From the NCBI RefSeq assembly GCF_030695525.1, contig NZ_JAUYSS010000025.1, forward strand, positions 1 through 64,000: a stretch of 64,000 nt of DNA. The letters run 5' to 3'. Origin of the DNA: Daejeonella sp. (GTDB lineage Bacteria > Bacteroidota > Bacteroidia > Sphingobacteriales > Sphingobacteriaceae). The position numbers were made by a program, and so were the translations under genes. The notes under the pieces were generated by a model. The model did no database searches. It was not told where the DNA came from and saw nothing but the letters and a program-made list of their open reading frames with translations. Shown here one piece after another: positions 33,861 to 63,894 of this stretch (positions within the stretch are counted from its first letter, which is position 1; each line of letters begins with the position of its first letter).

Positions 33861-34802
33861 ATGAACAATATCAACAAACTCTTCAATATTAAATACCCCA
33901 TTATTCAGGGGGGAATGGTTTGGTGTAGTGGCTGGCGACTGGCTTCGGCGGTATCGAATGCCGGCGGACTGGGTTTAATTGGTGCAGGATCTATGTATCC
34001 GGAAGTATTGCGGGAACATATTCAAAAATGCAGGCTTGCCACTTCAATGCCGTTTGGAGTTAATGTTCCATTGTTATATCCTGATATTGAGAAGATTATG
34101 GAAATAATCGTGGAAGAGAAGGTTGAGGTTGTTTTCAGCTCTGCCGGAAACCCGGCACTTTGGACTCCATTCCTGAAAAAAAATAATATCAAAGTGGTTC
34201 ATGTTATCGCGAATAAGAAATTTGCAAAAAAGGCTGAGGATTGCGGTGCTGATGCGATTGTTGCCGAAGGTTTTGAAGCCGGAGGGCACAATGGTCGCGA
34301 GGAAACTACAACTTTATGCCTGATCCCTGAAATCTGTGATGCAGTATCCGTTCCGGTTATCGCTGCAGGCGGAATTGGCAGTGGAAGGGCAATGCTTGCT
34401 GCATTTGCACTTGGTGCTGAGGGTGTGCAAGTAGGGTCTGTATTTGCAGCATCAGTTGAATCTTCTGCACATCAGAATTTTAAAGAGGCTATTATTCAGG
34501 CAGCTGAGGGCGATACTAAACTGAGTATGAAATCATTGATGCCGGTACGACTGCTCAAAAATGATTTCTACAGAGAAGTTGAAAAGGCGGAGGCTGAAGG
34601 AGCAAGCCGGACTGAATTGATGGAATTATTAGGCCGGGGCAGGGCAAAAAGGGGAATGTTTGAAGGAGATATGATTGAGGGGGAACTTGAAATCGGACAG
34701 GTTTCTTCATACATACATGAAATAAAGCCCGCCGCAAAAATTCTGATTGAGATATGGAAGGAATTTGTAGAAGAAAAGGAACGCATTAGTAAATTAACGT
34801 GA
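33861..34802 (+). CDS. Nitronate monooxygenase / FabK-like FMN enzyme
   Basis: About 313 residues from ATG 33861; a TTG at 33834 would add nine residues and is less likely. TIM-barrel FMN enzyme with YPIIQGGMVWCSGWRLASAVSNAGGLG at the start, AEGFEAGGHNGREETTTL containing the catalytic or substrate-site His, and VIAAGGIGSGRAM plus GAEGVQVGSVFAAS for FMN phosphate binding. It oxidises nitronates or reduces enoyl-ACP; the two activities cannot be separated here. Its last codons and stop (ACG TGA) coincide with the left end of the inverted-repeat element at 34794-34998. Confidence 0.88.
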   Translation: MNNINKLFNIKYPIIQGGMVWCSGWRLASAVSNAGGLGLIGAGSMYPEVLREHIQKCRLATSMPFGVNVPLLYPDIEKIMEIIVEEKVEVVFSSAGNPALWTPFLKKNNIKVVHVIANKKFAKKAEDCGADAIVAEGFEAGGHNGREETTTLCLIPEICDAVSVPVIAAGGIGSGRAMLAAFALGAEGVQVGSVFAASVESSAHQNFKEAIIQAAEGDTKLSMKSLMPVRLLKNDFYREVEKAEAEGASRTELMELLGRGRAKRGMFEGDMIEGELEIGQVSSYIHEIKPAAKILIEIWKEFVEEKERISKLT

Positions 34803-34998
34803 GCTCGATATTAAACAATCTAAAGATTAATATTTAACCACATAGATTGAATTTCTAGTGCTTTAAAGGAAACATAGATTGTAAATCATATAGATTGAAG
34901 CGAAGCTTCAAGGCTATCTGTGCCTAAAATTTAGGCTAGATGCTATAGAATGCTATGTTTCTATGTGGTTTTAAAGTATTATGTCGAGTTCACGTTAA
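34794..34998. mobile_element. ~205-bp inverted-repeat element with AACCACATAG core, copy A
   Basis: Ends TTAACGTGAGCTCGA and TCGAGTTCACGTTAA are near-perfect inverted repeats (one mismatch). Inside lies a second pair AACCACATAG (34836-34845) / CTATGTGGTT (34961-34970), several CATAGATTG-like units, and a TTGAAGC-GAA-GCTTCAA hairpin. A reverse-oriented relative lies at 54981-55178. It has no coding capacity, so it resembles a MITE-like or structured intergenic element. Confidence 0.65.
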
Positions 34999-35020
34999 AT
35001 TAAGTTTTTAGAACAATTCA

Positions 35021-35293
35021 ATGAAACATCTTGATATCATTATTAGCGGAAAAGTACAGGGTGTATTTTTCAGATCAACGAGTAAAGCTGTGGCCGATCA
35101 GCTTGGAATCAAAGGTACAGCCCGCAACCGGCCCGATGGAACTGTATTTATTGAAGCCGAAGGGGATGATTTCTCACTCGAACTCTTTCTTGAATTTTGC
35201 AATAAAGGCTCAGACAGGGCAGTAGTTGAAAATGTATCTTACAGCGAAGCTGAATTGAAAAACTATGTTAATTTTGAAGTAGTAAAAAGATAA
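35021..35293 (+). CDS. acyP: Acylphosphatase
   Basis: A 90-residue enzyme that hydrolyses carboxyl-phosphate bonds in acyl phosphates. Both catalytic residues are present: the Arg in SGKVQGVFFRSTS and the Asn in GTARNRPDGTV. The C-terminal strand NFEVVKR is typical. It stands just after the inverted-repeat element and 26 bases before the flippase gene. Confidence 0.95.
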   Translation: MKHLDIIISGKVQGVFFRSTSKAVADQLGIKGTARNRPDGTVFIEAEGDDFSLELFLEFCNKGSDRAVVENVSYSEAELKNYVNFEVVKR

Positions 35294-35319
35294 TTAATAC
35301 GATTTAATCTTATCTCTCA

Positions 35320-36822
35320 TTGTCAGCAATTAAAAAATTTGCCGGTCAGACTGCTATTTACGGGATAAGTACTGTCATAGCCCGTTTTTTAAACTTTTTT
35401 CTTACGCCTGTTTATGTGGGGCTTTACTCCCCGAAAGTTTACGGTATTTTTTCTGTAATGTATAGCTGGGCTTCCATGCTTAATGCTTTTCTGGCATTCG
35501 GAATGGAAACCACCTATTTCAGGTACCTCAATAAATATGAAAACGACAAGCAAAAAGTATATAACAATACTTTTTTTACGGTCTCATTGATGGCGATGAT
35601 ATTCTTGCTTTTCACTTTTCTTTTTGTGGATGATATTGCTGCATGGATGCAGAAGGGTGATGGGTATGATCCTGATTATGCACGTTATGTTAAATATTTC
35701 ATATACATCCTGGTGGCTGATGCTCTGGCGGTTATCCCATTTGCAAAAGTGAGGGCTGATGGCCGCCCTATACGCTATAGCATTATCAAGTTTGTCAATA
35801 TTTTAACATTTATAAGTTTAAACCTGATCTTCATATTTGTATTTCCGCTGATCATAAAGGAAGGCTGGTTTGGTGCTGATTATTTAATTGGCTGGTATAG
35901 GGAGGGTTGGGTAGGCTATGTATTCCTTTCCAACCTGATTGCAAGCCTGATTACTCTCTTGCTGCTTATACCAGAGCTTTTGAAATTGACATTTACCTAT
36001 GATATCACATTGCTGAAGGAAATGTTTGTTTATAGTCTGCCAGTACTGATTGCCAATATTTCCTTCATTGTCAATGAAAATATTGACAAGATATTTCTGG
36101 GACAGCTTTTGCCCGCTGATATAGCCGAACAGGAGGTAGGAATCTATGCAGCCTGTTGTAAGATCGCTGTGTTTCTGAGTATTTTCATCAGTGCATTTCG
36201 CCTGGGTGCTGAGCCTTTCTTCTTCAGTCATGCTAAAAATAAAAATTCATCCGAAACGTATGCCCGGATTATGAATTTCTTTGTGATTGCCATTTCCCTG
36301 ATCTTTGTATTGCTTGTAGTGAATATCGAGTTGCTCAAGTACTTTATTAAAGGTAAGGATGCTGCCGAGCAGGCACTTTATTGGTCGGGCTTAAGAATAG
36401 TCCCAATTTTATTGTTTGGTTATGTTAGTCTTGGAATTTATATCAATTTATCGATCTGGTATAAATTATCTGATCAAACGCGTTATGGATTATATATTTC
36501 GGGGATCGGCGCTATTTTAACGATCATCCTCAATGTAATCTTCATTCCTGAGTACAGTTATATGGCTTCGGCCTGGATCTCTCTGACTGCCTATACTGTG
36601 ATGATGATCCTTTCGTATTTATGGGGCCAGCGAAATTACCCCATACCATATAAGCTCAAGAAGAACATTATTTACCTTTTAACTTCCATTTGTATTGTTT
36701 TTGTAGCATTTGTAGTATTTGAACGTAATCTGATCATAGGAAATGCCTTGTTTCTTATATTTACAGGAATCATCCTATTCTCTGAAAGAAAGGAAATTAG
36801 GTTAATCTTAGGCACAAAATGA
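35320..36822 (+). CDS. Polysaccharide flippase (Wzx/MVF type)
   Basis: A 500-residue membrane protein with about twelve to fourteen transmembrane helices of the oligosaccharide flippase family, starting [23 protein letters not shown] and ending in a cluster of hydrophobic segments. It probably moves lipid-linked saccharides across the inner membrane. The start is TTG at 35320: no ATG lies near, and homologous N-termini begin at this point. Its stop overlaps the dut start (ATGA), so they are coupled. This gene with dut, a TPR protein, DUF4292 and EnvC-like genes forms an order I associate with Bacteroidota. Confidence 0.9.
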
Positions 36823-37250
36823 ACATTCGCATTATAAACAGATCATCCCATCAATTGCCGGCTTACGAAACAGCTGCATCAGCAGGGATGGATCTCAGAG
36901 CCAATCTTTCGGAAGTCCTGATTTTAAAGCCGATGGAGCGTAAGCTGGTTCCGACTGGTTTGTTTATTGAATTACCTGTAGGTTTTGAGGCGCAGATTAG
37001 GCCAAGAAGCGGACTTGCATTGAAGCATGGTATCAGCATTTTGAATTCTCCTGGAACAATTGATGCCGATTACAGGGGAGAAATTAAAATTCTGCTGATC
37101 AATTTTTCTGATATTGATTTTGAAATAAATAGTGGTGACCGTATAGCACAAATGATTATTTCAAGACACGAACAGGTAAGCTGGGAGGAAGTTGAAGTAT
37201 TAAGCGACACAGTTCGTGGATCAGGTGGTTATGGTCATACCGGATTATAA
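36819..37250 (+). CDS. dut: dUTP diphosphatase
   Basis: A 143-residue homotrimeric dUTPase with all five motifs: [41 protein letters not shown] and the C-terminal [11 protein letters not shown]. It hydrolyses dUTP to dUMP, keeping uracil out of DNA and supplying dTMP synthesis. ATGA overlap with the flippase stop; the TPR gene begins 4 bases after its stop. Confidence 0.97.
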
Positions 37251-37254
37251 AGTT

Positions 37255-38991
37255 ATGATTAAAAGGATCTTAGCTATATCGTTTTTATTGCTTTGTGCAA
37301 TTTCTCTATCCGCGCAGCGGAACAGAGTTGAAAAGACTGAGCCTGTAATTGTAATAGGTAAGACCCTAAATCAGAGGGATAGTATCCGGGTAAAGGAATT
37401 ATTCTTTGATGGACTGCAGGAAAAACTCTCAATGAATTATGCTCAGGCAGAATCAAGTTTTTCAAAAGTACTTGAATTGGATCCTGCTAATGATGCGGCT
37501 ATGTATGAGTTGGCTAATATCAGTTTAGCCGCTAACAAGCCCGGGGATGCAGAAAGATTGCTGAGAAAAGCCGTCACAGTAAGCCCTGAAAATGAATGGT
37601 ACTGGGCATTGCTCTCCGATATCTATAAAAGAACAAATAAAATTGATGACCTGGTTTTTGTACTGGAGGAATTATCCAGGATATCACCCAAAAATGAGTC
37701 TTATTACTATGACAAGGCAAATGCACTCCTGATACTAAAACGTGTTGAAGATGCTGAAGATGCCTATGACGAAATAGAGAAGAGATTTGGATCTTCAGAC
37801 AATCTGGTATCAGCCAGACAGCGTGTTCTGATGCAGCAAGGTAAATCGGCTAAACTCAGCGATGAACTCGAAAAGCAAATTCTTTCAAAACCCGAAGACT
37901 TAAGAAACTATATTTATCTGAGCGAGGTTTATGTCAAGGCAGGTGAAAGACAAAAGGCCGTTGAGATTTTGAACAGGGCAAAGGAGATATCACCTGCGAA
38001 TGCAATGGTCCGTCTTGCCCTTGCGGATAATTATAAGGCACTCAGGCAATTTGAAAATACATTTATTGAGCTGAAAGTTGCTTTTGAAGACCCTGATTTA
38101 AATATTGACGAGAAGGTGAGGATTGTACTTTCCTTTTTCCCAATGTTTGCTGATATGAAGGCAAGGGCTTATGCGAATGAACTGGCCTCAATCATGGTGA
38201 GGGTTCATCCTGATGAGGCGAAAGCCCATGCTGTAAATGGAGATGTTTTGTTTCAGGAGCGAAAATATCCGCAAGCTCAGGAATCCTACAAAAAAGCACT
38301 TGCAATTAATGATCAGGTCTATCAGATTTGGGAACAACTCTTGCGAATAGAAGTTAGCCGTGGTGAATTTGAGCTGGCTATCGCTGACGGGGATCAAGCA
38401 CTAAGTATTTTTCCGAATCAGGCTGCACTATATTTATATACGGGTATTGGTTATGCGCAAACTCAAAAACATGATAAGGCAATCGTTTATTTAAAAAGTG
38501 CATTAGATCTTGAAACTGAGGACAAAGAGATACTTGTTCAGATCTATTCTGCCATGGGTGATTCATTTAATTACCTGAAACAATTTAAGGAATCTGATCA
38601 GGCCTACACCAAAGCACTTGAGCTGGATCCCAAAAATTCCTATGTTTTGAATAATTATGCTTATTATTTATCGTTAAGAGGGGAGAATCTGGATGAGGCC
38701 GAAAGAATGTCAAGGCGTTCAAACGAACTGGATCCTGATAATGCATCATCTGAAGATACCTATGCATGGATTCTTTTTAAATTAAAGAAATATACTGAAG
38801 CAAGAACCTGGATTGAGAGAGCATTGCGGCATAATTCGAAAAGTGCAGTACAGGTAGAACATTACGGAGATATTTTATATTTCCTCGGAGAAAAGGAAAA
38901 GGCCGTCGAACAATGGCAAAAGGCAAAAGAAATTGGATCGCGCTCAGACACACTGGAAAAAAAAATAAATGAAAAAAAATATATTGATTAA
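37255..38991 (+). CDS. Secreted tetratricopeptide repeat protein
   Basis: About 578 residues from ATG 37255, which starts a clear signal peptide (IKRILAISFLLLCAISLSAQ); the longer frame would overlap dut. Roughly twelve TPR units follow, seen as repeats of the AxxxYxxALxLDPxN type, such as KALELDPKNSYVLNNYAYYL near the C-terminus. It is a periplasmic scaffold for protein-protein contact. Its 3' end overlaps the DUF4292 lipoprotein gene by 23 bases, so the two are tightly coupled and may act together in envelope assembly (inference). Confidence 0.9.
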   Translation: MIKRILAISFLLLCAISLSAQRNRVEKTEPVIVIGKTLNQRDSIRVKELFFDGLQEKLSMNYAQAESSFSKVLELDPANDAAMYELANISLAANKPGDAERLLRKAVTVSPENEWYWALLSDIYKRTNKIDDLVFVLEELSRISPKNESYYYDKANALLILKRVEDAEDAYDEIEKRFGSSDNLVSARQRVLMQQGKSAKLSDELEKQILSKPEDLRNYIYLSEVYVKAGERQKAVEILNRAKEISPANAMVRLALADNYKALRQFENTFIELKVAFEDPDLNIDEKVRIVLSFFPMFADMKARAYANELASIMVRVHPDEAKAHAVNGDVLFQERKYPQAQESYKKALAINDQVYQIWEQLLRIEVSRGEFELAIADGDQALSIFPNQAALYLYTGIGYAQTQKHDKAIVYLKSALDLETEDKEILVQIYSAMGDSFNYLKQFKESDQAYTKALELDPKNSYVLNNYAYYLSLRGENLDEAERMSRRSNELDPDNASSEDTYAWILFKLKKYTEARTWIERALRHNSKSAVQVEHYGDILYFLGEKEKAVEQWQKAKEIGSRSDTLEKKINEKKYID

Positions 38992-39772
38992 AACGGTTTA
39001 TGCACTGCTACTTCTGGTGGCCTTAACGAGCTGTAAGGCTAAAAAAGTAGTTTTGGTGCCCCCTGCTGTCCCTGAAACCTCAGCTATTCCATCAGATCCG
39101 GATAATTCCAGAGATAATAAATTGAAATCTATAAATGAAAGTGATTTGGTCTTTAGTACCATGGCAGTCAGATCTAAGGCGGTGCTAAGTATCAACGATA
39201 AAAGCAATGATGTGAACATGAGTTTCCGTATCAGGAACAATGAAGTGATATGGGTTTCGGTAACAGCACTTGCGGGGCTGGAGGTGGCCAGGGCATTGAT
39301 CACTCCAGATAGTGTCAAAATACTGAATCGATTAGATAATGTGTACATAAAGAAACCATTCAGCTATATCTATGAGTTTACCAATGAGCAGATCAGCTTC
39401 AGAACACTTCAGTCTATCCTGATTGGAAACACTATTTCAGAATTTATTACTGATTCAACTGAGCTAAATATGGAGCGTGATGAAGTTAAGCTGAGAACTA
39501 TTTTAGGGGCAATGACTTATAATTTACGGGTGAGCCCTCAAAATAAAGTAATCTATTCAAATTTGAATGACGAGCTTGCAAAACAGGAACTTACTGCCAA
39601 TTACTCTGATTTCATATTGGTAAATCAGCAACAGATTCCACATACAGTTGTGATGAATTCCAAAGTTAAAACTAAGAAGTTTCTGCTTGATCTGAAGTTT
39701 CTAAAAGTAGATTTGGATGGTCCTTTGGAACTTCCATTCAGGGTTCCTGAACGGTTTTTGATTAAAAATTAA
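38969..39772 (+). CDS. DUF4292 lipoprotein
   Basis: A 267-residue lipoprotein: signal peptide with lipobox LTSC at residues 19-22, then a spacer and a beta-rich domain (SFRIRNNEVIWVSVTALAGLEVARALITPDSV) that resembles the LolA/LolB-like fold. The fold parallel is from memory, not a computed match. It overlaps the TPR gene by 23 bases and precedes the EnvC-like gene by 14. A role in outer-membrane lipoprotein or lipid handling is possible but unproven. Confidence 0.88.
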   Translation: MKKNILIKTVYALLLLVALTSCKAKKVVLVPPAVPETSAIPSDPDNSRDNKLKSINESDLVFSTMAVRSKAVLSINDKSNDVNMSFRIRNNEVIWVSVTALAGLEVARALITPDSVKILNRLDNVYIKKPFSYIYEFTNEQISFRTLQSILIGNTISEFITDSTELNMERDEVKLRTILGAMTYNLRVSPQNKVIYSNLNDELAKQELTANYSDFILVNQQQIPHTVVMNSKVKTKKFLLDLKFLKVDLDGPLELPFRVPERFLIKN

Positions 39773-39786
39773 ATACATTTGACAGA

Positions 39787-41052
39787 ATGAAGCGTTTAAA
39801 GTGTATCCTTTTTCTTGTATTATTTTGTTCTGTAAGTGCTGTATTTGCTCAGAGTAGCTCAGAGCTTAGGAGGCGAAAGGAGGCATTGACCAGGGAAATA
39901 GAATCTTTGAACAAGAGCCTGAATCAGACTGCCAATAACAAGAACCTTTCCCTGAAGGAGATCCGTGCCCTGAATGCCCAGATCCGCCTGCGTGAGAATA
40001 AGATTAATATTATCAATTCAGAGGTTAAATTATTAGATAACCAGATTTCAGATAATACGAACACAGTCCGTTCGCTTCAGTCCCAGCTCAGTAAATTAAA
40101 AAAGGAATATGCAGCAATGGTACTGTTTGCTTTCCGAAATCAGAGTTCTTACAGTAAACTGATGTTTATTTTTGCAGCAGACAATTTCAATCAGGCTTAT
40201 AAACGGTTGAAATACCTTCAGCAATTCAGTGAATACAGAAAGAAACAGGCACAGTATATTGAAGGAACCCAAAAAGAACTAAATGTTAAGATCAGTGAAC
40301 TTGACAGAAACAAGAAGGAGAAAAGTGAAATATTGACAGATCAGCAGAAGGAAAAGCAGACTCTCGGTATACAAAAGAACAGTAAGTCCAAGGTTCTGAA
40401 CACTTTGACAAGTCAGGAGAAAAAGTTGAAACAGGAGCTTACTCAAAAGCAAAGGGAATCAGCCATTTTAAACAGGGCGATCCAGAATGCGATCAACCGG
40501 GAAATTGAAGAGGCAAGGAAAAGGGCTGAGGCTGAAGCCAGGGCCGCCGCCGCAAAGGCCAAAGCAGAGAATAAGGATGCGCCTGATTATAAGCCTGTTG
40601 CAAGTGGGTCGAGTATTTTGGCGGCAACACCTGAATCTGCAAAACTATCTTCCGATTTTCTGGGAAGCAGGGGAAGCCTTCCCTGGCCGGTAACGAATGG
40701 AATGATCATCGAGGATTTTGGGAATCATACAATCGGGCGAAATGTAACTACCGAAAACAATGGGGTTGATATTAAAACAGCTCCGGGTTCAGCTGTTCGT
40801 GCTGTATTTGGCGGCGATGTTGCTGCGGTTCAGAATATTTCAGGTTCCTACGCTGTTTTGATCAGGCACGGTGAATATTTTACCGTATATTCGAATTTAA
40901 AGAGTGTAAGTGTATCAAGAGGACAGAAAGTTACGTTAAAACAAAATATAGGTATTGTAATCACTGATCCTATTGACGGGACAACTGAAGTGCACTTTGA
41001 AGTACGTAAAGGAGCGACTCCAATGAATCCTGCCGGTTGGCTGGCAAATTAA
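39787..41052 (+). CDS. EnvC-like murein hydrolase activator (degenerate M23/LytM)
   Basis: A 421-residue periplasmic protein. Signal peptide 1-21; residues about 22-265 form a long coiled coil; the C-terminal LytM domain runs from NGMIIEDFGNH to the end. The zinc ligands are incomplete: the position of the first His reads TENNGVDIKT, while EVHFEVRK keeps one. This degeneracy is as in EnvC, which activates amidases instead of cutting peptidoglycan itself. It probably controls septal cell-wall splitting. It ends the flippase-dut-TPR-DUF4292 series. Confidence 0.9.
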   Translation: MKRLKCILFLVLFCSVSAVFAQSSSELRRRKEALTREIESLNKSLNQTANNKNLSLKEIRALNAQIRLRENKINIINSEVKLLDNQISDNTNTVRSLQSQLSKLKKEYAAMVLFAFRNQSSYSKLMFIFAADNFNQAYKRLKYLQQFSEYRKKQAQYIEGTQKELNVKISELDRNKKEKSEILTDQQKEKQTLGIQKNSKSKVLNTLTSQEKKLKQELTQKQRESAILNRAIQNAINREIEEARKRAEAEARAAAAKAKAENKDAPDYKPVASGSSILAATPESAKLSSDFLGSRGSLPWPVTNGMIIEDFGNHTIGRNVTTENNGVDIKTAPGSAVRAVFGGDVAAVQNISGSYAVLIRHGEYFTVYSNLKSVSVSRGQKVTLKQNIGIVITDPIDGTTEVHFEVRKGATPMNPAGWLAN

Positions 41053-41055
41053 TTA

Positions 41056-41087
41056 TTGAGAAAAAGGCAATTTATTGCCTATATTTG
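41056..41087 (+). promoter_or_regulatory. Promoter TTG-N21-TATATTTG before tatA
   Basis: TTG (41056-41058), 21 bases, TATATTTG (41080-41087), then 8 bases to the ATG. A hairpin AGGCAAT-TT-ATTGCCT (41066-41081) lies between the boxes and may end the upstream transcript or regulate the promoter. Confidence 0.55.
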
Positions 41088-41095
41088 TATATAGT

Positions 41096-41557
41096 ATGAT
41101 GAGTATGGTTAATTCTGTGTTATTGTTTATGAATATCGGAGGGCCGGAGATGATCCTGATATTCCTTGTTGTTCTCTTATTGTTTGGTGGTAAAAAGCTT
41201 CCAGAACTTGCCCGCGGTTTGGGTAAAGGCCTTAGAGAGTTTAAGGATGCATCTGATGGAATTAAAAGGGAGATCCATAACAACATTAATAGTGTTAATG
41301 AGGTTGCTGAGCAGGTAAAATCAGAAGTTCAGACTGCTGCAGATTATATAGATACCGAAACCTCTGCCGTAACAGGCTATTCCAATCCTGATGAGGCTGT
41401 ATTGGAGCATGGATATGCATCCCAAACAGAACTGGAACATGAAAATAGTAATCCTGTAGCCGGATATGAACCTGAAAACACATTTGTTGAACCGGGTTCA
41501 GAAATTACAAATAATCCCGAAGATACGGGGCTTGAGCATACAAAAATCGCACATTAA
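41096..41557 (+). CDS. tatA: TatA/E family translocase with extended C-terminus
   Basis: About 153 residues. The TatA core is clear: one helix [39 protein letters not shown] with the FGGKKLPEL hinge. After the amphipathic helix comes an unusually long, acidic, low-complexity tail of about 100 residues. It forms the pore of the twin-arginine export system. Start could be ATG 41096, 41099 or 41105; a TTG at 41075 lies in the promoter and is rejected. A second tatA follows 10 bases after. Confidence 0.92.
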
Positions 41558-41567
41558 ATAAATTATT

Positions 41568-41771
41568 ATGTCAAATTCAATGTTATTATTTGCAGGACTG
41601 GGAGCCACTGAAGTTATCTTAATTGTCGTGGTAGTACTGTTAATGTTTGGAGGTAAAAAAATCCCTGAGCTAATGCGCGGGTTGGGTAAAGGAATTAAAG
41701 AATTCAAGACTGCTCAGAATGGCGAGGGAGAAACTCCTGCCTCTACTTCAAAAGACCAGGAGACTAAATAA
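41568..41771 (+). CDS. tatA: TatA/E family translocase, short
   Basis: A 67-residue TatA with the membrane helix [37 protein letters not shown] and a short polar tail. It follows the longer paralogue by 10 bases, so the two were probably duplicated in tandem and are cotranscribed. Neither TatB nor TatC is in the window. A Tat substrate with an NRREAVRR signal is encoded at 61526. Confidence 0.94.
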
Positions 41772-41789
41772 TATATTCTATCTGGAATT

Positions 41790-41824
41790 AATTTCCTCTG
41801 GTATAATCATTGCCGGAGGAAATT
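41790..41824. terminator. Likely terminator after the tatA pair
   Basis: AATTTCCTC (41790-41798) pairs perfectly with GAGGAAATT (41816-41824), 18 bases after the second tatA stop, followed by TCTATTTT. The AT-rich remainder to 41966 shows no gene. Confidence 0.6.
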
Positions 41825-41966
41825 TCTATTTTAAACTAAATTGCCTTATTTGGAATCTATAGAGACGATAGAAAGCCAATCCTGGCTTATCAATACGTAT
41901 GATTCTTGTTTGCATCTTGTGGCATAATCATAAATTTTATTTCTATTAAATTACACTATTAGAGGC

Positions 41967-43406: not shown

Positions 43407-43438
43407 AGTTCCAGGTTTCTATATGTTGTTTAATCTGG

Positions 43439-43446
43439 TAAATTTG
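43439..43446 (+). promoter_or_regulatory. -7 promoter box TAAATTTG
   Basis: Match to TAnnTTTG 19 bases before the lytic transglycosylase ATG at 43466. Confidence 0.5.
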
Positions 43447-43465
43447 CCTACTCTATTTTCAAAAT

Positions 43466-44686: not shown

Positions 44687-44744
44687 ATTAATAGTTATAC
44701 AGGAGTCTTATTGTTGTTAATTACATCTATAACGAAAAGAATTG

Positions 44745-44752
44745 TAATTTTG
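44745..44752 (+). promoter_or_regulatory. -7 promoter box TAATTTTG of the malic enzyme gene
   Basis: Match to TAnnTTTG, 25 bases before the ATG at 44778. Confidence 0.55.
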
Positions 44753-44777
44753 CCCACCTGACCAATTCCCAAACTTA

Positions 44778-47108
44778 ATGAGTAAAACTAACCGTAAACA
44801 AGACGCATTGGACTACCATTCTCATGGCCGTCCCGGGAAAATACAGGTTGTACCAACCAAACCCACCAATTCTCAGCGTGATTTGTCGCTGGCCTATTCA
44901 CCCGGTGTAGCAGAACCATGCCTCAGGATTGCAGAAAATAAAGAAGATGTCTATAAATATACCGCCAAGGGAAACCTTGTTGCAGTAATCAGCAATGGCT
45001 CAGCGGTTCTTGGTCTGGGTGATATTGGCCCTGAAGCCGGGAAACCGGTAATGGAAGGGAAGGGATTACTCTTTAAAATATTTGCAGATATCGATGTGTT
45101 TGACCTCGAGCTGGATACTCAGAACATTGAGGAATTTGTCACCATTGTTAAGGCACTTGAGCCTACTTTCGGTGGTATTAATCTGGAGGATATCAAGGCA
45201 CCGGAATGCTTTGAAATTGAGCGTCGTCTTAAGGAGGAAATGTCAATTCCGGTTATGCATGATGATCAGCATGGTACAGCAATCATTTCTGCCGCTGCAT
45301 TAATCAATGCCTGTGAATTGCAGAAGAAGAAGCTGGATAAAGTTAAAATTGTAGTTAATGGTGCAGGTGCGGCAGCAATTTCCTGTACCCGTTTATATGT
45401 AAGCCTTGGTGCACGAAAAGAAAATATTGTGATGCTTGACCGTTCGGGGGTTATTCGCAGCGATCGTGCAAATCTTGAGGGTACTAAAGCTGAATTCGCC
45501 ACTACCCGTAAGATTAATACGCTGGCGGAGGCCGTTAAAGATTCGGATGTATTTATCGGACTTTCTTCTCCTGATGTATTGACTGCCGAGATGCTTAAAA
45601 CAATGGCAAAAAATCCGATTGTATTTGCAATGGCAAACCCTGATCCTGAAATTGCCTATGAGCTTGCAATCAAAACCCGAAAGGATATTATTATGGCAAC
45701 CGGCCGATCAGATTATCCGAATCAGGTAAATAATGTACTCGGTTTTCCATATATATTCAGAGGGGCACTCGACGTAAGGGCTACCGGAATAAATGAAGAA
45801 ATGAAAAAGGCAGCAGTATTTGCAATCGCTGAACTGGCCAAGAAAACGGTTCCTGAATCAGTAAATCTTGCCTATAATGTAAAAAATATAAAATTCGGGA
45901 AAGATTATATCATTCCAAAGCCTATTGACCTTCGCTTAATCACTTCAGTATCACCTGCAGTTGCCAAAGCAGCAATGGATTCGGGTGTGGCACGCAAAGT
46001 AATAAACGACTGGGAAGCGTATAATGAGGAATTAAAAACCCGCCTTGGCCTTGACGATAAGTTAATGCGTACCATCACAAATAAGGCTAAAAGTGCTCCT
46101 AAGCGCGTAGTTTTCGCAGAAGCTGATAATTACAAAATTTTGAAGGCCGCACAGATTGTTCGTGATGAAGGTATTGCGATACCGATTTTACTGGGGAATA
46201 AAGGCCTGATCAGTCGCATTATGCAGGAAAACGAACTTGAACTGGATGGAGTAAACATTATCGATCCGCTAGAAGAACTTGAAAAAAGAAACAAGTTTGC
46301 TGATTTCCTGTACAAAAAACGTCAGCGCCGGGGAATTACCCTGTTTGAGGCAAAAAAACTGATGAAGGACCGGAATTATTATGGTGCTGCAATGGTTCAG
46401 TTTGGGGAAGCAGATGCTTTGATCTCCGGGCTGACCAAAGATTATCCTTCTACCATCAAGCCTGCACTTCAGGTAATTGGGATTGAAGAGGGAATTAACC
46501 GTGTTGCCGGGATGTATATGATGCTGACAAAAAAGGGTCCTGTATTTTTTGGTGATACTACAGTTAATGAAAATCCTAGCGTTGATGAGCTGGTTGACAT
46601 AACTACTTTACTTGATCATTCTGTCAGGAAATTTAATATTCAGCCAAGAGTTGCAATGCTATCCTATTCAAATTTTGGATCGAATGATGGGGCAGTTCCT
46701 GACAAGGTTCGTCAGGCAGTCAAGATTCTCCATGAAAAGCATAAGGAAATCACTGTTGACGGCGATATGCAGGCAAATTTTGCGATGAATCCTGATTTGC
46801 TCAAAGATAATTATCCTTTCAGTACTTTAGTAGGCGCACCTGCAAATGTGTTGGTATTCCCAAATCTTGAGTCCGGAAATATTGCCTATAAATTACTGCA
46901 GGAAATAGGTGGTGCTGAGGCTGTAGGTCCAATCTTGCTGGGACTGAATAAACCGGTGCACATCTTGCAATTAGGAAGTTCTGTACGGGAGATTGTGAAT
47001 ATGGTTACCATAGCTGTTGTGGATGTTCAGACCAAGGAGGAAGAAAGTTCAGCACTGCTTAGTCCAAAACCAAAAGGCATATTTAAAAGGCCTTTAAAAA
47101 AAGAATGA
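44778..47108 (+). CDS. maeB: NADP-dependent malic enzyme with phosphotransacetylase-like domain
   Basis: A 776-residue two-domain protein. Residues 1-430 are the malic enzyme part ([35 protein letters not shown]), converting malate to pyruvate and CO2 with NADP. Residues about 440-770 resemble phosphotransacetylase ([51 protein letters not shown]), usually an inactive, acetyl-CoA-sensing regulatory domain in MaeB. Length matches the family. Single gene with its own promoter; ruvA follows 45 bases later. Confidence 0.95.
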
Positions 47109-47153
47109 ATAATAACAGACCGAATTATTGTGAATTAATATTAATCGAAAAAG

Positions 47154-47738
47154 ATGTACGCATATATAAGTGGTAAACTGGTATTCAAGTCTCCAAACTA
47201 TGTGGTTTTAGACGCTAATGGAATAGGTTATCACATTAATATTTCGCTGAATACTTATGCGGCACTTGAGGAGAAGGAACATTGCAAGCTTTATACCTGG
47301 CTTCATGTAAAAGAGGATGCTCACACCCTGTATGGTTTTTATGAGGAGGGTGAGCGTCGTTTGTTTCTGCACCTGATTTCTGTTTCAGGAATAGGGCCCA
47401 ATACCGGCAGAATGATTCTGTCGTCAATTACACCGTCTGAGATCCAGGCGGCAATCGTTAAAGGCGATGTGCCCCTGATTCAAAGGATTAAAGGTATCGG
47501 CCCTAAATCTGCACAAAGGATGATACTTGAACTGCAGGACAAACTAAAAAAGGAAGGCCCTGACTCACTCATCTCCATGCCTGTTCATAATACGGCAAAA
47601 GATGAAGCGTTATCAGCTTTGGTTATGTTAGGTTTTAACAAAAATATTGCTGAAAAGTCGCTTGAAAGCGCAATCAAAGCTTCAACAGAAAATTTATCTG
47701 TTGAAGCTTTGATAAAAATTGCCCTTAAAAGCTTATAA
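47154..47738 (+). CDS. ruvA: Holliday junction DNA helicase subunit RuvA
   Basis: A 194-residue protein: N-terminal OB domain (MYAYISGKLVFKSPNYVVLD), paired helix-hairpin-helix motifs (VSGIGPNTGRMILS and IKGIGPKSAQRMILEL) and a C-terminal domain III that contacts RuvB. It binds four-way junctions and loads RuvB for branch migration. sprA starts 15 bases after its stop, an order seen in several Bacteroidota. Confidence 0.96.
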   Translation: MYAYISGKLVFKSPNYVVLDANGIGYHINISLNTYAALEEKEHCKLYTWLHVKEDAHTLYGFYEEGERRLFLHLISVSGIGPNTGRMILSSITPSEIQAAIVKGDVPLIQRIKGIGPKSAQRMILELQDKLKKEGPDSLISMPVHNTAKDEALSALVMLGFNKNIAEKSLESAIKASTENLSVEALIKIALKSL

Positions 47739-47753
47739 TTATAACAATATCCT

Positions 47754-50700
47754 TTGAAATTGAGAAGTGCCGCTACTTTTTGCCTGAAGAGCTTTTTGTG
47801 TGTCTTCCTTCTTCTGTCTGCAGGACGGGTATTTGCCCAAAATACCCCTGTTGCCAAGGATACTGTTAAACTCGTTTATCCTTTTCAGGATTCCAAAACA
47901 CTGCAGTTCAAACCGCAAACAGGAATTATACTTCCAAACCCATCGAATATTCAGAGAAGCGTTGAATTTGATCCGGTTTCAAAGCGTTATATCATTCGGG
48001 AAAAAATTGGGGAAAGACTCTACCGGGCTCCTCAATATCTAAGTATTGAGGAGTATCAGAGATATGAAAATGAACTGATAAAAAGGAATTACTGGCGTGA
48101 ATTGGCAGATTTGCCGCTTTCCGAGGCCCGTGAACCCGGGTTCATCCCCCCTGTAATGGTAAACAGTAAATCTTTTGAAAAATTATTTGGCGGAAATACG
48201 ATAGAAATCAGGCCACAGGGATCCGCTGACCTTACTTTTTCTGGACGATTAAGCCGAAATGAGAACCCCTTGTTCAATGAACGGCAACGCAGGCAGGGTA
48301 ATTTTGATTTCGATCAGCGGATACAAATGAATGTCGTTGGGCAAATCGGTGAAAAGATGCGGATCAGCACCAATTATAATACGGAAGCCCAGTTCGATTT
48401 CGAGAACCAGGTCAAGCTCGATTATACAGGTAAGGATGATGAAATCATCAGAAAGATAGAAGCAGGTAACGTGAGTCTGCCATTGAGCTCTTCCCTGATT
48501 AGCGGCAGTCAGGCTCTGTTTGGATTAAAGACCCAGCTGCAATTTGGAAAATTGAATGTAACCAGCATTTTTTCTCAGCAAAAATCACAGCAAAAGGAGA
48601 TTACAATTACCAATGGTTCCCAACAAAATGAATTCAGTATCTCGGCGGATAATTATGAAACCAATAAGCATTATTTCCTGGCTCAGTATTTCAGGGATAC
48701 TTATAATAAAGCTTTGGAAAATATACCGCTCAATAGCTCTAATATTAATATTACAAAAATTGAAGTTTGGATAACCAATCGTGCAAACAGCACCGTAAAT
48801 TCAAGAGATGTTCTGGGCTTACTCGATCTGGGTGAAAATAAGGTTTACAATACCTTTCAGGTTCAGGGTGGGCAGGGATTTTCTGTTCTTCCATCTGGCT
48901 TCGCCGGTCCGGGATTTGGTCAACAGTCAAATAATTTGCTGCAGATTCTTCCACCAGGGGTAAGACAGACCAATTCCAATGATGCAATTTCCTTTTTTCA
49001 GGCTGCAGGAGGCGGTACCGACAATTTTGCAAAACTGACATTTGCCAGAAATCTTACTGATAAGGAATTTATATTAAACCCCAGGCTCGGGTATATATCC
49101 CTAAACACTGCCTTGAATGCAGATGAGGTTCTGGCTGTCGCTTTTCGCTATACAATCAATGGAGTTGAATATCAGGTTGGGGAATTCTCCACTGATAATC
49201 CAGTGAATAATTCCACGCCGGAAGTATTATATGTTAAATTATTAAAGAATGAAACCCTGAAAACAAGTCTGCCAACCTGGGATTTGATGATGAAGAATAT
49301 TTATACCCTTGGGGCGTATCAGGTTAGCCGAAACGATTTTAAACTAAATATTTTCAGGCTTGATGAGGATACGGGTATAGAAAAACCGCAGATGACTGAA
49401 GGGCAGAACACCAACAATAAATTATGGATACAGTTAACCAATCTGGATAATCTGAATCAGCAGAACGACCGTAAGCCAGATGGTTATTTCGATTTTCTGG
49501 AAGGCATCACCATCGATCCACAGAATGGAAGGATTACTTTCCCACTAGTAGAACCTTTTGGTTCTGACCTGGCTAAGCGTTTTAATCCGGTATCTGAGCG
49601 TAATCTGATCGATAAATATGTTTATCAGCCTCTGTATGACTCTACAAAGGTGATCGCTCAGCAATTGTTTGCAAGATTGAACAGATATCTGATCCGGGGT
49701 ACCTATCAGTCGCAGGGAGGTTCAGAATTTCAGCTGAATGCTATTAATGTCCCCCCGGGTTCGGTACAAGTAGTTGCAGGATCAATGCCATTGCAGGAGG
49801 GGGTCGATTTTACAGTCGATTATAATATTGGTGTGGTCAGAATCTTAAATTCTGCCCTGCTTAGTTCAGGGCAGCAAATTAGAATCAAACTTGAAAACAA
49901 TGAACTTTTTGGATTACAGCAGCGTTCGCTCACCGGCTCACGTTTTGATTATCGCGTAAACGATAAGCTGAATCTGGGAGGTACATTCATGAACCTGACG
50001 GAAAAGCCCCTTACCCAGAAAGTGAATATTGGAGAAGAAGCAATTTCGAATACGATATGGGGTATAGATGCAAGCTATAATTCCCCTTCCAGATGGCTGA
50101 CACGAATGGTAGATAAGATTCCATTCATCAATACTAAGGAACCTTCTAGTATTACCTTCAATGGGGAGTATGCCAGTCTTGTTCCCGGCCATCCCAGAGC
50201 ACTGAATTTTGCAGGAAGCAGAAACGGAGCAAGTTATCTCGATGATTTTGAAGCAAGCCGGTCCATGATCGATATTAAAAGTGCCATATCTTGGCATATT
50301 TCAGGCACCCCTCAGCACTTTCCGGAATCAAGGCTTAACAATGACCTGGCTTATGGTTATAACCGGGCGAGACTTGCTTTTTATAATATCGATCCAATAT
50401 TTTTCCTGAATGGAAATTCACTTACGCCCGAAAATATCAGAAGGGATAAGAATGAATTGTCAAATCATTATGTCCGTCAGGTTTTTGAGCGGGAGGTTTT
50501 TCCTTTCAAGGATTCCAACACGGGGCAGGCAATTATTCTCCCAACCTTCGATCTTGCTTTTTATCCAACCATCAGGGGTCCATATAATTTCACTACTTCT
50601 GGCCTGACTTCTCAAGGTACCTTAACTAATCCACGAAGCAGGTGGGGTGGGATTTTCAGGAAACTTGAAACAAACGATTTTGAGGCATTGAATATTGAGT

Positions 50701-53700
50701 TTATCGAAATGTGGATGCTCGACCCATTCATATATAATACTACTAGCCCGGGTGGTGATCTCTACTTCAATCTGGGTAATATTTCTGAAGATATTCTGAA
50801 AGATGGAAGGAAAAGTATGGAGAATGGTTTACCGATAGATGGAAATATTACCAAAACGGAAAATACTATATGGGGTAGAGTCCCAAAACTTCAGCCGGTC
50901 ATACAGGCATTTGATAATAACCCCACGGCCAGAGAATTTCAGGATATAGGTATCGACGGTTTGAGTAGTGAAGATGAGAGACAGCAGTTCAGTTCCTTTT
51001 TGAATCAGGTAAAGGCAAGTATTAATCCTCAGGCTGCAATTGAGCTTGAAAGTGATCCTGCATCAGATGATTATCAATACTACAGGGGATCAAATCTGGA
51101 TCAGGCAAATGCCGGTATTCTAAAGAGGTATGAGAAATATAATAATACTGAAGGAAATTCAAAAACCGCTCAGCAATCTTTAGCACTGACGGGAATTGAG
51201 AATACCGCAGCAACATCATTTCCGGATGGAGAGGATATCAACCGGGATAACAATTCAACACAGGCCGATGAGTATTTTCAGTACAAGGTTTCTATTCGGC
51301 CTCAGGATCTGCTTTCGGTAGGAACTAATTATGTTTCAGACATTGTTCCTGCAACGGTCAGACTGGCTAATGGAACACAGGAAACAGTCAGGTGGATTCA
51401 ATTTAAAATCCCAATTGCAGAATATTTGCAGAAAGTTGGGAATATTGAGGATTTTAAATCGATTCGCTTTATCAGGATGTTTATGACTGATTTTGCAGAT
51501 ACTACTGTGATGCGTCTGGCAAGACTGCAATTGGTTAGAGGTGAATGGAGAAGGTACAATTCCGAGAATAATCCATCCAAGGTCATCGCTGATCCATCTT
51601 TAATTAATCCTGGTCTCGACAATTCTGTAATTGATGTCAGTGCAGTCAATATTGAGGAGAATGGAAAACGCACCCCGATTCCATATGTTCTTCCACCGGG
51701 TATTACCAGGGAAATCGATTTTACAAATTTCAGGGGGGAATCCCGTCAGAATGAACAATCATTGGCTTTAAGTGTCCGGAATCTTCGGGATGGCTACGGG
51801 CGTGCAGCCTTCAGAACTACTATGCATGATTTTCGTTCCTATAAGCGTCTCGAAATGTTCATTCATGCTGAAGGTGATCAGTTGCGGGATAACGACCTCA
51901 GGGCTTTCCTTAGGGTGGGTACCGATAATCAGGATAATTATTATGATTATGAGATTCCATTAAAAGTCACCAGTCCGGGAACCAGTGCCCCCAGCCTGAT
52001 CTGGCCCGATCAGAATAAGGTGGATGTAGAATTAAGGTTGTTTTTAGAAGCCAAAGCTGCCCGCAACAGGGCCGTTTTTAATGGGCAACCATGGCCGATT
52101 AATCGACCCTATATTTATCAGGATGGGCAAAATATAATCACCGTAAAAGGGCAGCCCGATCTGAGCAAGGTCAGGGTTTATATGCTTGGCGTTCGTAATC
52201 CATTGCGAAGTTTAGCAAATCCGGGTCTTGATGATGGACTCGATAAATCAGCTCAAATCTGGTTTAATGAGATGCGGCTCACCGATTTTGATGAGCGGGG
52301 AGGATGGGCTGCAACTGCCCGTATGAATGCCAGACTTGCAGATTTTGCAGATGTTACCATCTCGGGTAGCAAGAGTACCATTGGCTTCGGTTCAATAGAC
52401 CGCAGAGTGAGTGAGCGAAACCGGGATGATGATATGCTTTTTGACCTTTCAGGCAATGTAGAGCTTGGCAAATTCTTCCCTGAACGTACAGGATTGAAAG
52501 TGCCCATGTATGTGAACTTCTCAAAGCAGATAGCATCACCACAATATGATCCGCGAATTCAGGATACTGAATTTAAAACCACGCTCGAAAATTCTACAAA
52601 GGAAGTACGGGATTCACTGAAATTCATCACCGAGGATTATACTGCCAGGAAGAGTATTAATTTTACCGATGTCCGCAAGATCAAAACCAATCCTGAAAGT
52701 AAAATCCACCTTTGGGATATTGAAAATCTGAGTGCAAGCTATGCATTCAATGAGTTTAATCACCGCGATTTCATTAATGAAAACACCTTACAGAAGACCT
52801 ACCGGGCCGGATTGCAGTATAATTATTCGAAACAGGCCAAAAGCATTACTCCATTCGAGAAACTAATCAAATCTAAAAGTCTTTCATTGATCAGGGACTT
52901 TAATTTCAGTCTTTTACCATCAATTCTAAATTTCCGGATAGATGTTGACCGATTATATTCAGAGAATACCCTGCGCGATAATGACCCCAATAATTTTCTT
53001 CCGATTAATACCAATTTTAATAAGAATTTCCAGATGTCGCGTCTCTACGGCATCAGCTGGAACCTGACCCGTTCCATGCAAATAGACTTCAATGCAACCA
53101 ACTATTCTATTATTGATGAACCCGAGGGTCGAATAAACGGACTAAAACGGGACACACTCTGGCAAAACCTGATGAAGCTGGGTCGGACAACTGATTACGG
53201 TCATACGATGAACCTGACCTATAATTTACCTATCAATAAAATTCCCGGTATGGACTGGATTACAGTTGCAGCCCGTTATGGTTCGGGTTTTAACTGGCAG
53301 ACAGAACCCTTGTTGACAATGAATGATCCCAGAATTAATGTGGGGAACACGATTCAGAACTCACGTACAGTCCAGCTCAACCCTACCTTAAATATGGTTG
53401 CATTGTATAATAAATTCGGTTTTGTCAGAAGCATGAACCAGGCTGATAAAAGTAATGCAGCCGGCTTCCTGATTAATCTGATTACCAGTCTGAAAAATGT
53501 CAGCGGGGCATACACCAAAACAGAGGGTACTTTTCTTCCCGGTTATCTTCCTAAAACAGGTTTCATTGGGCAGGATCTCAGTTTTAATGCTCCTGGGTAT
53601 GATTTTATATTTGGCGGGCAAAGGGATATCAGAAGCCGTTCGCTGGAAAATGGCTGGATCACGCGGGACTCATTGCTGAATCAGTTATACATTAATACCA

Positions 53701-54812
53701 TTAAAGAAGATATGAGTTTCAGGGGTTTAATTGAGCCAATCCGTGACCTTCGTATTGAATTGACTGCTATCAAAAGTCAGAGTTTTAATTATTCATCAAA
53801 TTTCAAATTCCTTCCTTCAAGCGATAGCTTCGAAAATTTGAGTCCGGTTACCACCGGGGATTTCAGTATCTCCTTTTTCTCAATGAAAACAGCGTTCAGT
53901 AAGGAGAATAAATTAAACAATTCTTCGCGTCTGTTTACACAGTTTCAGGAGAACAGAGCCATAATCTCCCGGAGGCTGGGCGCTCAAAATCCAAATTCTA
54001 CAGGATCTTCGGGCGGATTTGCGGATGGTTATAACAGGAGTTCCCAGGATGTATTGATTGCCTCATTCATGGCAGCCTATACTGGTAAGGATGCCAATAA
54101 TATTTCACTTAACCGCTTTCCTAAAATTCCGATTCCTAACTGGAGGCTTAGCTATAACGGACTGACAAAGTATTCTTTCTTCAATGAAATTTTTACCTCG
54201 GTTGATATCAATCATGCCTATCGATCGACCTACAGTGTGAATGGATTTAATTCACTGATACGTTATCAGGAATCAAATGGTGCAGTCAATGTGAAAGATG
54301 CAAGCGGGAACTTCCTTCCTTTTTATCAGTTTTCGCAAATTACTTTATTTGAGCAGTTTCTGCCCTTATTTGGTGTTGATGTCAGACTGAAAAATAATAT
54401 GACCCTGAACCTGGAGTACCGTAAATCAAGGGCTCTTGGTTTTAGTTTAGCAAACAGTCAGCTGGCTCAACAAAAAGAAGACGGTGCAGTATTTGGTATG
54501 GGTTACCGTACCACTACATTTCGTTTCCCATTCGGTTTGTTTAAGTCATTGAAACTGGATAATGACATGAATTTTAAAATGGATTTTGCCTTAACCGACC
54601 GTAAACTGGTGATCTACCGTGCAGATGTTGATGATGCAGAAGTTTCATCAGGAGCAAAGAATATTACCGTCAGACCCTCAGTTGATTATGTGCTGAACCA
54701 GCGGTTCACAATGAGGTTATTCTATGATGGTAATATCACCAAACCTTATACCTCCCAGACCTTTAATACTTCATTCAGCAATTTTGGGGTTAATTTAAGG
54801 TTTAACCTGTAA
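47754..54812 (+). CDS. sprA: Cell-surface protein SprA, type IX secretion translocon
   Basis: A 2352-residue outer-membrane protein, in the size range of SprA. Signal peptide ends RVFAQ (residue 29). The N-terminal part carries the SprA-family segments such as FGGNTIEIRPQGSADLTFSGR and NPRLGYISLN; the rest is a very large barrel (36 strands in the known homologue). It forms the outer-membrane pore through which T9SS clients, including gliding adhesins, are exported. The start is TTG at 47754, with another TTG two codons on and no nearby ATG. The frame is intact over 7 kb. Confidence 0.95.
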   Translation: MKLRSAATFCLKSFLCVFLLLSAGRVFAQNTPVAKDTVKLVYPFQDSKTLQFKPQTGIILPNPSNIQRSVEFDPVSKRYIIREKIGERLYRAPQYLSIEEYQRYENELIKRNYWRELADLPLSEAREPGFIPPVMVNSKSFEKLFGGNTIEIRPQGSADLTFSGRLSRNENPLFNERQRRQGNFDFDQRIQMNVVGQIGEKMRISTNYNTEAQFDFENQVKLDYTGKDDEIIRKIEAGNVSLPLSSSLISGSQALFGLKTQLQFGKLNVTSIFSQQKSQQKEITITNGSQQNEFSISADNYETNKHYFLAQYFRDTYNKALENIPLNSSNINITKIEVWITNRANSTVNSRDVLGLLDLGENKVYNTFQVQGGQGFSVLPSGFAGPGFGQQSNNLLQILPPGVRQTNSNDAISFFQAAGGGTDNFAKLTFARNLTDKEFILNPRLGYISLNTALNADEVLAVAFRYTINGVEYQVGEFSTDNPVNNSTPEVLYVKLLKNETLKTSLPTWDLMMKNIYTLGAYQVSRNDFKLNIFRLDEDTGIEKPQMTEGQNTNNKLWIQLTNLDNLNQQNDRKPDGYFDFLEGITIDPQNGRITFPLVEPFGSDLAKRFNPVSERNLIDKYVYQPLYDSTKVIAQQLFARLNRYLIRGTYQSQGGSEFQLNAINVPPGSVQVVAGSMPLQEGVDFTVDYNIGVVRILNSALLSSGQQIRIKLENNELFGLQQRSLTGSRFDYRVNDKLNLGGTFMNLTEKPLTQKVNIGEEAISNTIWGIDASYNSPSRWLTRMVDKIPFINTKEPSSITFNGEYASLVPGHPRALNFAGSRNGASYLDDFEASRSMIDIKSAISWHISGTPQHFPESRLNNDLAYGYNRARLAFYNIDPIFFLNGNSLTPENIRRDKNELSNHYVRQVFEREVFPFKDSNTGQAIILPTFDLAFYPTIRGPYNFTTSGLTSQGTLTNPRSRWGGIFRKLETNDFEALNIEFIEMWMLDPFIYNTTSPGGDLYFNLGNISEDILKDGRKSMENGLPIDGNITKTENTIWGRVPKLQPVIQAFDNNPTAREFQDIGIDGLSSEDERQQFSSFLNQVKASINPQAAIELESDPASDDYQYYRGSNLDQANAGILKRYEKYNNTEGNSKTAQQSLALTGIENTAATSFPDGEDINRDNNSTQADEYFQYKVSIRPQDLLSVGTNYVSDIVPATVRLANGTQETVRWIQFKIPIAEYLQKVGNIEDFKSIRFIRMFMTDFADTTVMRLARLQLVRGEWRRYNSENNPSKVIADPSLINPGLDNSVIDVSAVNIEENGKRTPIPYVLPPGITREIDFTNFRGESRQNEQSLALSVRNLRDGYGRAAFRTTMHDFRSYKRLEMFIHAEGDQLRDNDLRAFLRVGTDNQDNYYDYEIPLKVTSPGTSAPSLIWPDQNKVDVELRLFLEAKAARNRAVFNGQPWPINRPYIYQDGQNIITVKGQPDLSKVRVYMLGVRNPLRSLANPGLDDGLDKSAQIWFNEMRLTDFDERGGWAATARMNARLADFADVTISGSKSTIGFGSIDRRVSERNRDDDMLFDLSGNVELGKFFPERTGLKVPMYVNFSKQIASPQYDPRIQDTEFKTTLENSTKEVRDSLKFITEDYTARKSINFTDVRKIKTNPESKIHLWDIENLSASYAFNEFNHRDFINENTLQKTYRAGLQYNYSKQAKSITPFEKLIKSKSLSLIRDFNFSLLPSILNFRIDVDRLYSENTLRDNDPNNFLPINTNFNKNFQMSRLYGISWNLTRSMQIDFNATNYSIIDEPEGRINGLKRDTLWQNLMKLGRTTDYGHTMNLTYNLPINKIPGMDWITVAARYGSGFNWQTEPLLTMNDPRINVGNTIQNSRTVQLNPTLNMVALYNKFGFVRSMNQADKSNAAGFLINLITSLKNVSGAYTKTEGTFLPGYLPKTGFIGQDLSFNAPGYDFIFGGQRDIRSRSLENGWITRDSLLNQLYINTIKEDMSFRGLIEPIRDLRIELTAIKSQSFNYSSNFKFLPSSDSFENLSPVTTGDFSISFFSMKTAFSKENKLNNSSRLFTQFQENRAIISRRLGAQNPNSTGSSGGFADGYNRSSQDVLIASFMAAYTGKDANNISLNRFPKIPIPNWRLSYNGLTKYSFFNEIFTSVDINHAYRSTYSVNGFNSLIRYQESNGAVNVKDASGNFLPFYQFSQITLFEQFLPLFGVDVRLKNNMTLNLEYRKSRALGFSLANSQLAQQKEDGAVFGMGYRTTTFRFPFGLFKSLKLDNDMNFKMDFALTDRKLVIYRADVDDAEVSSGAKNITVRPSVDYVLNQRFTMRLFYDGNITKPYTSQTFNTSFSNFGVNLRFNL

Positions 54813-54980
54813 TAAGCTTTCTATCTTTTGGAAAGATGCTTCTGTGCTCTTTTTAATTGAAGTTCCCGCTTTTCGCTCATACCCCACAGGCCTTAATCAC
54901 AGGCCGGTATCCGCTTCAATCGCGTTTAAGCATATCAGACAGTGCGATTAAAACCTGATCTATCCCCAATTATAAATAAC
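54813..54980. other. Gene-free stretch after sprA
   Basis: Part of the 462-bp gap before gcvH. ATCTTT-TGG-AAAGAT (near 54827-54841) is a small hairpin shortly after the sprA stop without a clear T tract. The part 54860-54960 (CGCTTTTCGCTCATACC, AGGCC...GGCC, CGCTTCAATCGCG) resembles dispersed intergenic repeats I know from related genomes. No gene is supported. Confidence 0.4.
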
Positions 54981-55178
54981 TTAAGTGAACTCAACATGAT
55001 ATTTAAAAACCACATAGCAACATAGCATTTTATAGCTTCCAACCTATAATTAGACACAGATAGCCTTGAAGCTTTGCTTCAATCTATATGATTTACAATC
55101 TATGTTTCCTTTAAAGCATAATAAATTCAATCTATGTGGTTAAATATTAATCTTTAGATAGTTTAATATAGTACTTAG
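54981..55178. mobile_element. ~200-bp inverted-repeat element with AACCACATAG core, copy B (reverse orientation)
   Basis: Inner pair AACCACATAG (55008-55017) / CTATGTGGTT (55132-55141) encloses a TTGAAGC-TTT-GCTTCAA hairpin. Its reverse complement aligns with the element at 34794-34998 over nearly its whole length, including about 30 bases outside the inner arms on each side. No coding capacity. Confidence 0.65.
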
Positions 55179-55221
55179 GTTAATTAAGCTTATTATAACC
55201 CAAATAACCCTCAATTAAGAA

Positions 55222-63880: not shown

Positions 63881-63894
63881 TAGTGAATCAACAG

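Follow-up and report, generated by a model that had tools for sequence, protein, structure and literature searches.

Short non-coding transposons in Daejeonella share a core hairpin with GxxExxY cassettes: hints of a nuclease and hairpin partnership

Two oppositely oriented elements, A and B, in the Daejeonella sp. contig studied here are MITEs, non-autonomous transposons. The account that we regard as probable joins two layers, a MITE carrying a GxxExxY-type hairpin and a second system made up of a nuclease and its cognate arms. The first layer is well documented and looks ordinary. For the second, related nuclease genes often come with their own matching hairpins, which hints at a previously undescribed partnership of gene and hairpin.

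Within the window (the whole stretch of 64,000 nucleotides that was analysed), copy A extends from terminal inverted repeat (TIR) to TIR at 34796..34996 on the forward strand, and copy B, which has eroded ends and no exact target duplication, at about 54982..55181 on the reverse strand. The two are ~200 bp long, are reverse complements of each other almost end to end (88%) and contain no open frame of at least 80 amino acids. Both hold AACCACATAG/CTATGTGGTT inner arms, CATAGATTG units and a TTGAAGC hairpin. A preliminary description had recognized the pair at 34794-34998 and 54981-55178, ends that are refined here, and the inner arms, CATAGAT units and TTGAAGC hairpin that it listed are all present; it made no mention of outer terminal inverted repeats or of a target duplication. 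In A, the outer repeats are located at 34796..34811 (left, forward strand, AACGTGAGCTCGATAT) and 34981..34996 (right, reverse strand), and they are flanked by the target duplication AAATT at 34791..34795, found once in the empty sites of relatives, and at 34997..35001. Further inside are the left inner arm AACCACATAG (34836..34845, forward), the hairpin TTGAAGC-GAA-GCTTCAA (34895..34911, forward) and the right inner arm AACCACATAGAAACATAG (34953..34970, reverse), which is identical to dispersed hairpin arms. The corresponding parts of B are the inner right arm AACCACATAGCAACATAG (55008..55025, forward), the TTGAAGC hairpin with a different 3-base loop (55066..55082, reverse) and the inner left arm AACCACATAG (55132..55141, reverse).

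The insertion of A gave the upstream nitronate monooxygenase/FabK-like gene a new stop codon (34800..34802, forward), so that the protein ends in KLT-stop inside the left end of the element; in relatives that lack A the same gene is one codon longer, ending in KLSF-stop in genome G109, as read by eye. A ~150-bp interspersed repeat at 54822-54971 adjoins B and is also found beside related copies in loci L006, L058/L079 and L029. No RNA family matched the window or 18 loci that were searched.

MITEs are recognized by terminal inverted repeats and a target duplication. A whole-genome search of the genome under study (G000; other G numbers denote the genomes compared and L numbers denote loci), in which 40 of 52 candidates were scored, gave 35 hits with E<=0.001 when copy A was the query, some of them partial. 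With this many hits, the likeness of A and B is not accidental. The earlier suggestion of a multi-copy, MITE-like, mobile non-coding family that shares its arms with a GxxExxY cassette is borne out. Thirty matches to this family (family I) align as one ~200-bp non-coding element, in which the outer inverted ends AACGTGAGTTCGATAT / AACGTGAACTCGACAT are followed inward by an A/T-rich spacer and by the arms AACCACATAGATTG and CTATGTTTCTATGTGGTT flanking the TTGAAGC hairpin. The outer terminal inverted repeats of the family are AACSTGARYTCGAYAT. The consensus ends agree at 17 of 24 positions, and the end pattern is found at 73 sites in G000 (reversed pattern, 0). Three copies (L013, L024 and L029) have a CCTGCCTGCCGGCAGGCAGG-type palindrome added at one right-arm position.

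Exact 5-bp A/T-rich target duplications flank 22 of the 60 full-length copies with distinct flanks, whereas shuffled pairs averaged 3.5 and never exceeded 10 in 300 rounds; because the same insertion in sister species was counted (for A, L001, L138 and L139), these are not 60 independent events. Family I is present in 10 of 20 genus genomes searched, and the copy A site is filled in three of the 20 (G000, G104 and G129). The site is uninterrupted in G109, G114, G124, G144 and G086, where TAAATTAA (TAATTTAA in G086) occurs once rather than twice, and G119, G092, G098 and G134 have a near-clean join without A. Copy B is missing in all 16 assessable relatives, with both flanks on one locus (L179 and L192 could not be judged). 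The preliminary description had proposed that empty sites in relatives be compared for target duplications; both A and B have empty sites in relatives, which speaks against a fixed structure. Beyond the genus, a search of 151 Sphingobacteriaceae genomes yielded nothing of family I but fragments of 27-42 bp, in 4 genomes. Family I is classed as a MITE because it combines terminal inverted repeats, target duplications and empty sites in relatives. Transcription terminators were considered as an identity for A and B and rejected on the ends, the duplications and the empty sites.

A transposase that makes 5-bp duplications would act in trans on the outer inverted repeats of A and B. A second structured non-coding family of ~460 bp, family II (for example L157:1083-1540), has the same outer ends as family I and shows 5-bp duplications in 3 of 18 cases (shuffled mean 0.46, maximum 3). 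No transposase was found between outer ends at 40 TIR loci, and the enzyme is therefore one that we only infer: 38 of these loci hold a copy of one or the other family, and Pfam annotation, which covered only the remaining pair (L171 and L231), showed ordinary genes and no transposase there.

The core arm AACCACATAGAAACATAG is common to A and B, to a GxxExxY cassette at 63855, and to gene-less hairpins of ~62-146 bp that are related to the cassette and lack the outer repeats. The left arm of the cassette, AACCACATAGATACATAG, is located at 63855..63872 on the forward strand, and is the third motif copy that had been noted ahead of the GxxExxY gene; its inverted partner, the right arm, lies beyond the window end at G000:C2:64312-64329. 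The gene (TIGR04256, PF13366) begins at 63883 on the forward strand and is cut by the window end (63883..64000). A and B have only the core hairpin in common with the cassette.

Exact AACCACATAG is found six times in the window, comprising four occurrences in A and B, the one at 63855 preceding GxxExxY, and one at 47198 that lies within an open frame and is probably a chance occurrence. Allowing one mismatch, the window has 9 sites against 3.6 expected, and 9 was reached in 1 of 100 shuffles. The 18-base arm, searched as AACCACATAGANACATAG with at most one mismatch, is present in 10 of the 20 genus genomes and at 36 sites in G000 (control pattern, 0), and chance sharing of AACCACATAG was rejected on these counts. 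By a count made by hand, 28 of the 36 sites lie within family I matches; the others are the cassette arms, the hairpins L396/L397 (120 and 146 bp) and L405 (~62 bp), and the lone site L406. Movement of a gene-less hairpin was not observed; one orthologous-looking site varies in tandem number, the single L405 hairpin of G000 being replaced at seemingly the same place by two in G104 and G109 (L399 and L400).

The cassette is situated between a GMC oxidoreductase gene and the next gene. At this orthologous site, G000 and G104 have arms and gene (L033 and L198), so that complete GxxExxY copies between the same arms, which the preliminary description had suggested looking for, do exist. In G109 the site holds a hairpin, an internally deleted gene and the right arm. 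Nothing but a 63-64-bp hairpin consisting of both arms is present in G144, G124, G114, G098 and G134; a remnant is found in G086, and nothing in G129, G119, G149 and G092. At the second cassette, L034, the gene is absent from the orthologous site in relatives whose flanks are 84-288 bp apart; the boundaries are too diverged to place, and in G104 and G109 the flanks are ~1.9 kb apart. Neither a target duplication nor a sharp boundary was seen in comparisons of the 63855 and L034 sites. A further GxxExxY gene of G000, L031, contains an in-frame stop, yet its arms match each other.

GxxExxY protein scores 127.4 bits against TIGR04256, for which the curated cut-off is 35, and is placed by Pfam in PF13366, a PD-(D/E)XK family. 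Of 151 Sphingobacteriaceae genomes in the sample, 73 encode it, and plasmids of several phyla carry it too. We assembled 114 loci from Sphingobacteriaceae, 34 from searches and 80 picked among the matches listed, and in all 114 the residues E22, Y25, D62, E72, K74, Q86, Y90, N103 and F104 are invariant; the invariant D and ExK residues are in line with the PD-(D/E)XK assignment. A structure model built from two sequences gave the order helix-helix-strand-strand-strand-helix at a pLDDT of 43, too weak to use, and a search of the PDB by sequence returned no match. In the excerpts of the literature found, GxxExxY is named merely in passing, and no link between it and RAYT/REPIN-like hairpins turned up in the literature searched.

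Inverted arms are a common property of these loci. When upstream sequence was scored against reverse-complemented downstream sequence at 108 of the 114 loci (the other six had too little flank), the median was 31, compared with 19 in cross-paired controls (p=3.5e-37); 64 of the 108 loci attained or exceeded the 95% level of the controls, and 44 fell short of it. Similarity in direct orientation was raised as well (median 21 versus 19, upper quarter 37 versus 21, p=1.7e-6), as is expected at loci with repeated units or with a complete hairpin on either side of the gene. Two classes of arm could be distinguished: C-class arms consist of C[AG]C[AGT][AGT]AG units, often preceded by TTTAAC, and G-class arms of GAATT, GGATT or GATT units, often preceded by TGTCTGAAC. 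Neighbouring units are spaced 8-9 bp apart in 63 of 111 cases in the C class and 69 of 107 in the G class, and opposite-strand units, which are fewer, have the same preference.

Arm class follows the protein. On a protein tree of 118 columns, in which many forks lack resolution, arm class changes 4 times among 76 classified loci (48 C-type and 28 G-type; the 38 unclassified loci are excluded from this two-class count). With three labels, C requires 17 changes versus 36.9 when shuffled and G 10 versus 25.1, and none of 500 shuffles was as low. Across 4649 pairs of loci that belong to different genera, cross-side arm similarity rises with protein identity (Spearman 0.24, a value that none of 500 permutations reached), although this correlation is weak and could stem in part from the common ancestry of gene and arms.

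Similar arrangements are found on mobile and viral DNA. Five of eight plasmid matches to GxxExxY were read, and inverted arms are present in those of Bacteroides finegoldii, Bernardetia, Sphingomonas parapaucimobilis and Gemmatirosa, with complete hairpins flanking the gene on both sides in Gemmatirosa; the Fusobacteria plasmid has a direct repeat only and no inverted arms. On the S. parapaucimobilis plasmid (L384), the GxxExxY gene is located between fabD and fabG. In viral contigs, GxxExxY has two clear relatives, L377 and L378 (L381 is the L378 contig), and two weak ones, L379 and L380. Of the two IMG/VR contigs with clear relatives, L377 has arms and L378 is without inverted arms; in L378 the gene lies between hsdM-like and hsdS-like frames, named by eye.

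Dispersed copies of a second arm type are found with the GAATT clade of the protein, ten genes that a branch of support 86 separates from the rest. Exact TGTCTGAACYNGAATT occurs in 15 of the 151 genomes, and its reversed control gives single hits in 3. Nine of the 151 have at least three exact sites, with up to 39 in G136, and all nine carry a GAATT-clade gene (7 from the sampled set and 2 added later). In G002 and G044, the cassette's own arms, which bracket the gene over spans of 517 and 514 bp respectively, supply two of the three sites. G126 carries a GAATT-clade gene, yet has no exact site. One or two sites are found in six genomes, five of them (G051, G106 and G146 included) without a GxxExxY match; some of their sites resemble decayed hairpins and others chance hits. 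Twelve distinct pairs of opposite sites were read, ten spanning 91-103 bp, one 120 and one 219, and the dispersed hairpins of this clade are ~93 bp long. For both the CATAG and the GAATT types, the arms that bracket the gene are also present as gene-less hairpins elsewhere in the genome.

When seven hairpins were folded, three each of the GAATT and CATAG types plus the core of A, all proved far stronger than their shuffles, with z of -5 to -9. Hairpins of this strength would also suit an explanation that we consider unlikely, though deserving of weight, in which the GxxExxY arms are regulatory or terminator hairpins, or homology arms, inherited or transferred along with the gene and not a substrate of the nuclease; the agreement between arm and clade could then come from common inheritance. 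However, between loci of different genera the similarity of upstream to downstream arms rises with protein identity, the 8-9-bp spacing is common to the two arm classes (although opposite-strand units have it as well), and gene-less copies are dispersed in genomes.

The preliminary description had offered two origins for A and B, as MITE-like forms or as deletion derivatives of a GxxExxY cassette. The first is upheld by the terminal inverted repeats, duplications and empty sites. The second, that A and B derive from a cassette once enclosed by the same outer ends, now appears decidedly improbable. The core arms of A and B do match the cassette arms, and G109 provides an internally deleted gene between arms, but no TIR-like site lies within 250 bp of any of the 4 GxxExxY genes of G000, and a single, degenerate and unpaired TIR match was found at 4 of the 114 loci, compared with 1 of 114 when the pattern was reversed. 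None of the 114 loci, among them all 4 of G000, has outer ends that pair within 250 bp. Because A and B have their own outer repeats with 5-bp duplications, unpaired at the 114 loci, they are not simply deleted cassettes. It is very doubtful that a conventional RAYT (Y1 HUH) encoded at another site moves the hairpins as REPINs, with GxxExxY as a passenger, for while hairpin size and dispersal are REPIN-like (by the excerpted account in PMC3116915), the gene between the arms is PF13366 and arm type tracks the GxxExxY clade.

In the account that we favor, of a MITE joined to a nuclease system, the core hairpin of A and B would belong to that system, in which a PD-(D/E)XK nuclease gene is often bracketed by inverted arms. 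The association of gene and arms is observed; nuclease action and hairpin movement are inferred. Most likely, the GxxExxY nuclease would recognize its own arms, extruded as a hairpin or cruciform, and cut them, and the cutting would allow hairpins, and now and then the gene, to move or be copied, as is thought for RAYTs with REPINs. An ancestral MITE would have enclosed or captured a hairpin of this type, and the composite would then have spread. Taken at its broadest, as a widespread REPIN-like selfish system in which each PD-(D/E)XK GxxExxY lineage recognizes and moves or maintains its own hairpins of 8-9-bp units, one of them hijacked by a transposon to form a composite MITE, the proposal has in our judgment an even chance of being correct. 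The tie of GxxExxY to specific repeats could account for a class of intergenic repeats, and it lends itself to a direct biochemical test with cognate and non-cognate arms.

Three known kinds of element invite comparison. Intervening sequences of 23S rRNA can hold an internal four-helix-bundle ORF. GxxExxY cassettes resemble them in having a small gene within inverted arms but differ in encoding another protein and, in the cases read, in adjoining protein genes. Family I is like bacterial MITEs in being short, non-coding and present in many copies, and unlike known ones in its own end sequence, in its GxxExxY-type hairpin core and in that an autonomous partner was not found. Reported examples of bacterial MITEs come from Porphyromonas gingivalis (PMC4596501) and Cardinium (PMC9769881). 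The GxxExxY system is like RAYT/REPIN, as far as the excerpt of PMC3116915 describes the latter, in that a gene lies between palindromes, gene-less hairpins are dispersed and the hairpin sequence is lineage-specific. It differs in that its arms consist of arrayed units at 8-9-bp spacing and in that a genome often has several GxxExxY genes. The system thus resembles RAYT/REPIN in arrangement, yet is no member of it because its gene encodes a PD-(D/E)XK nuclease and not a Y1 HUH transposase. If the proposal holds, the RAYT/REPIN arrangement would exist in a second and independent form with GxxExxY.
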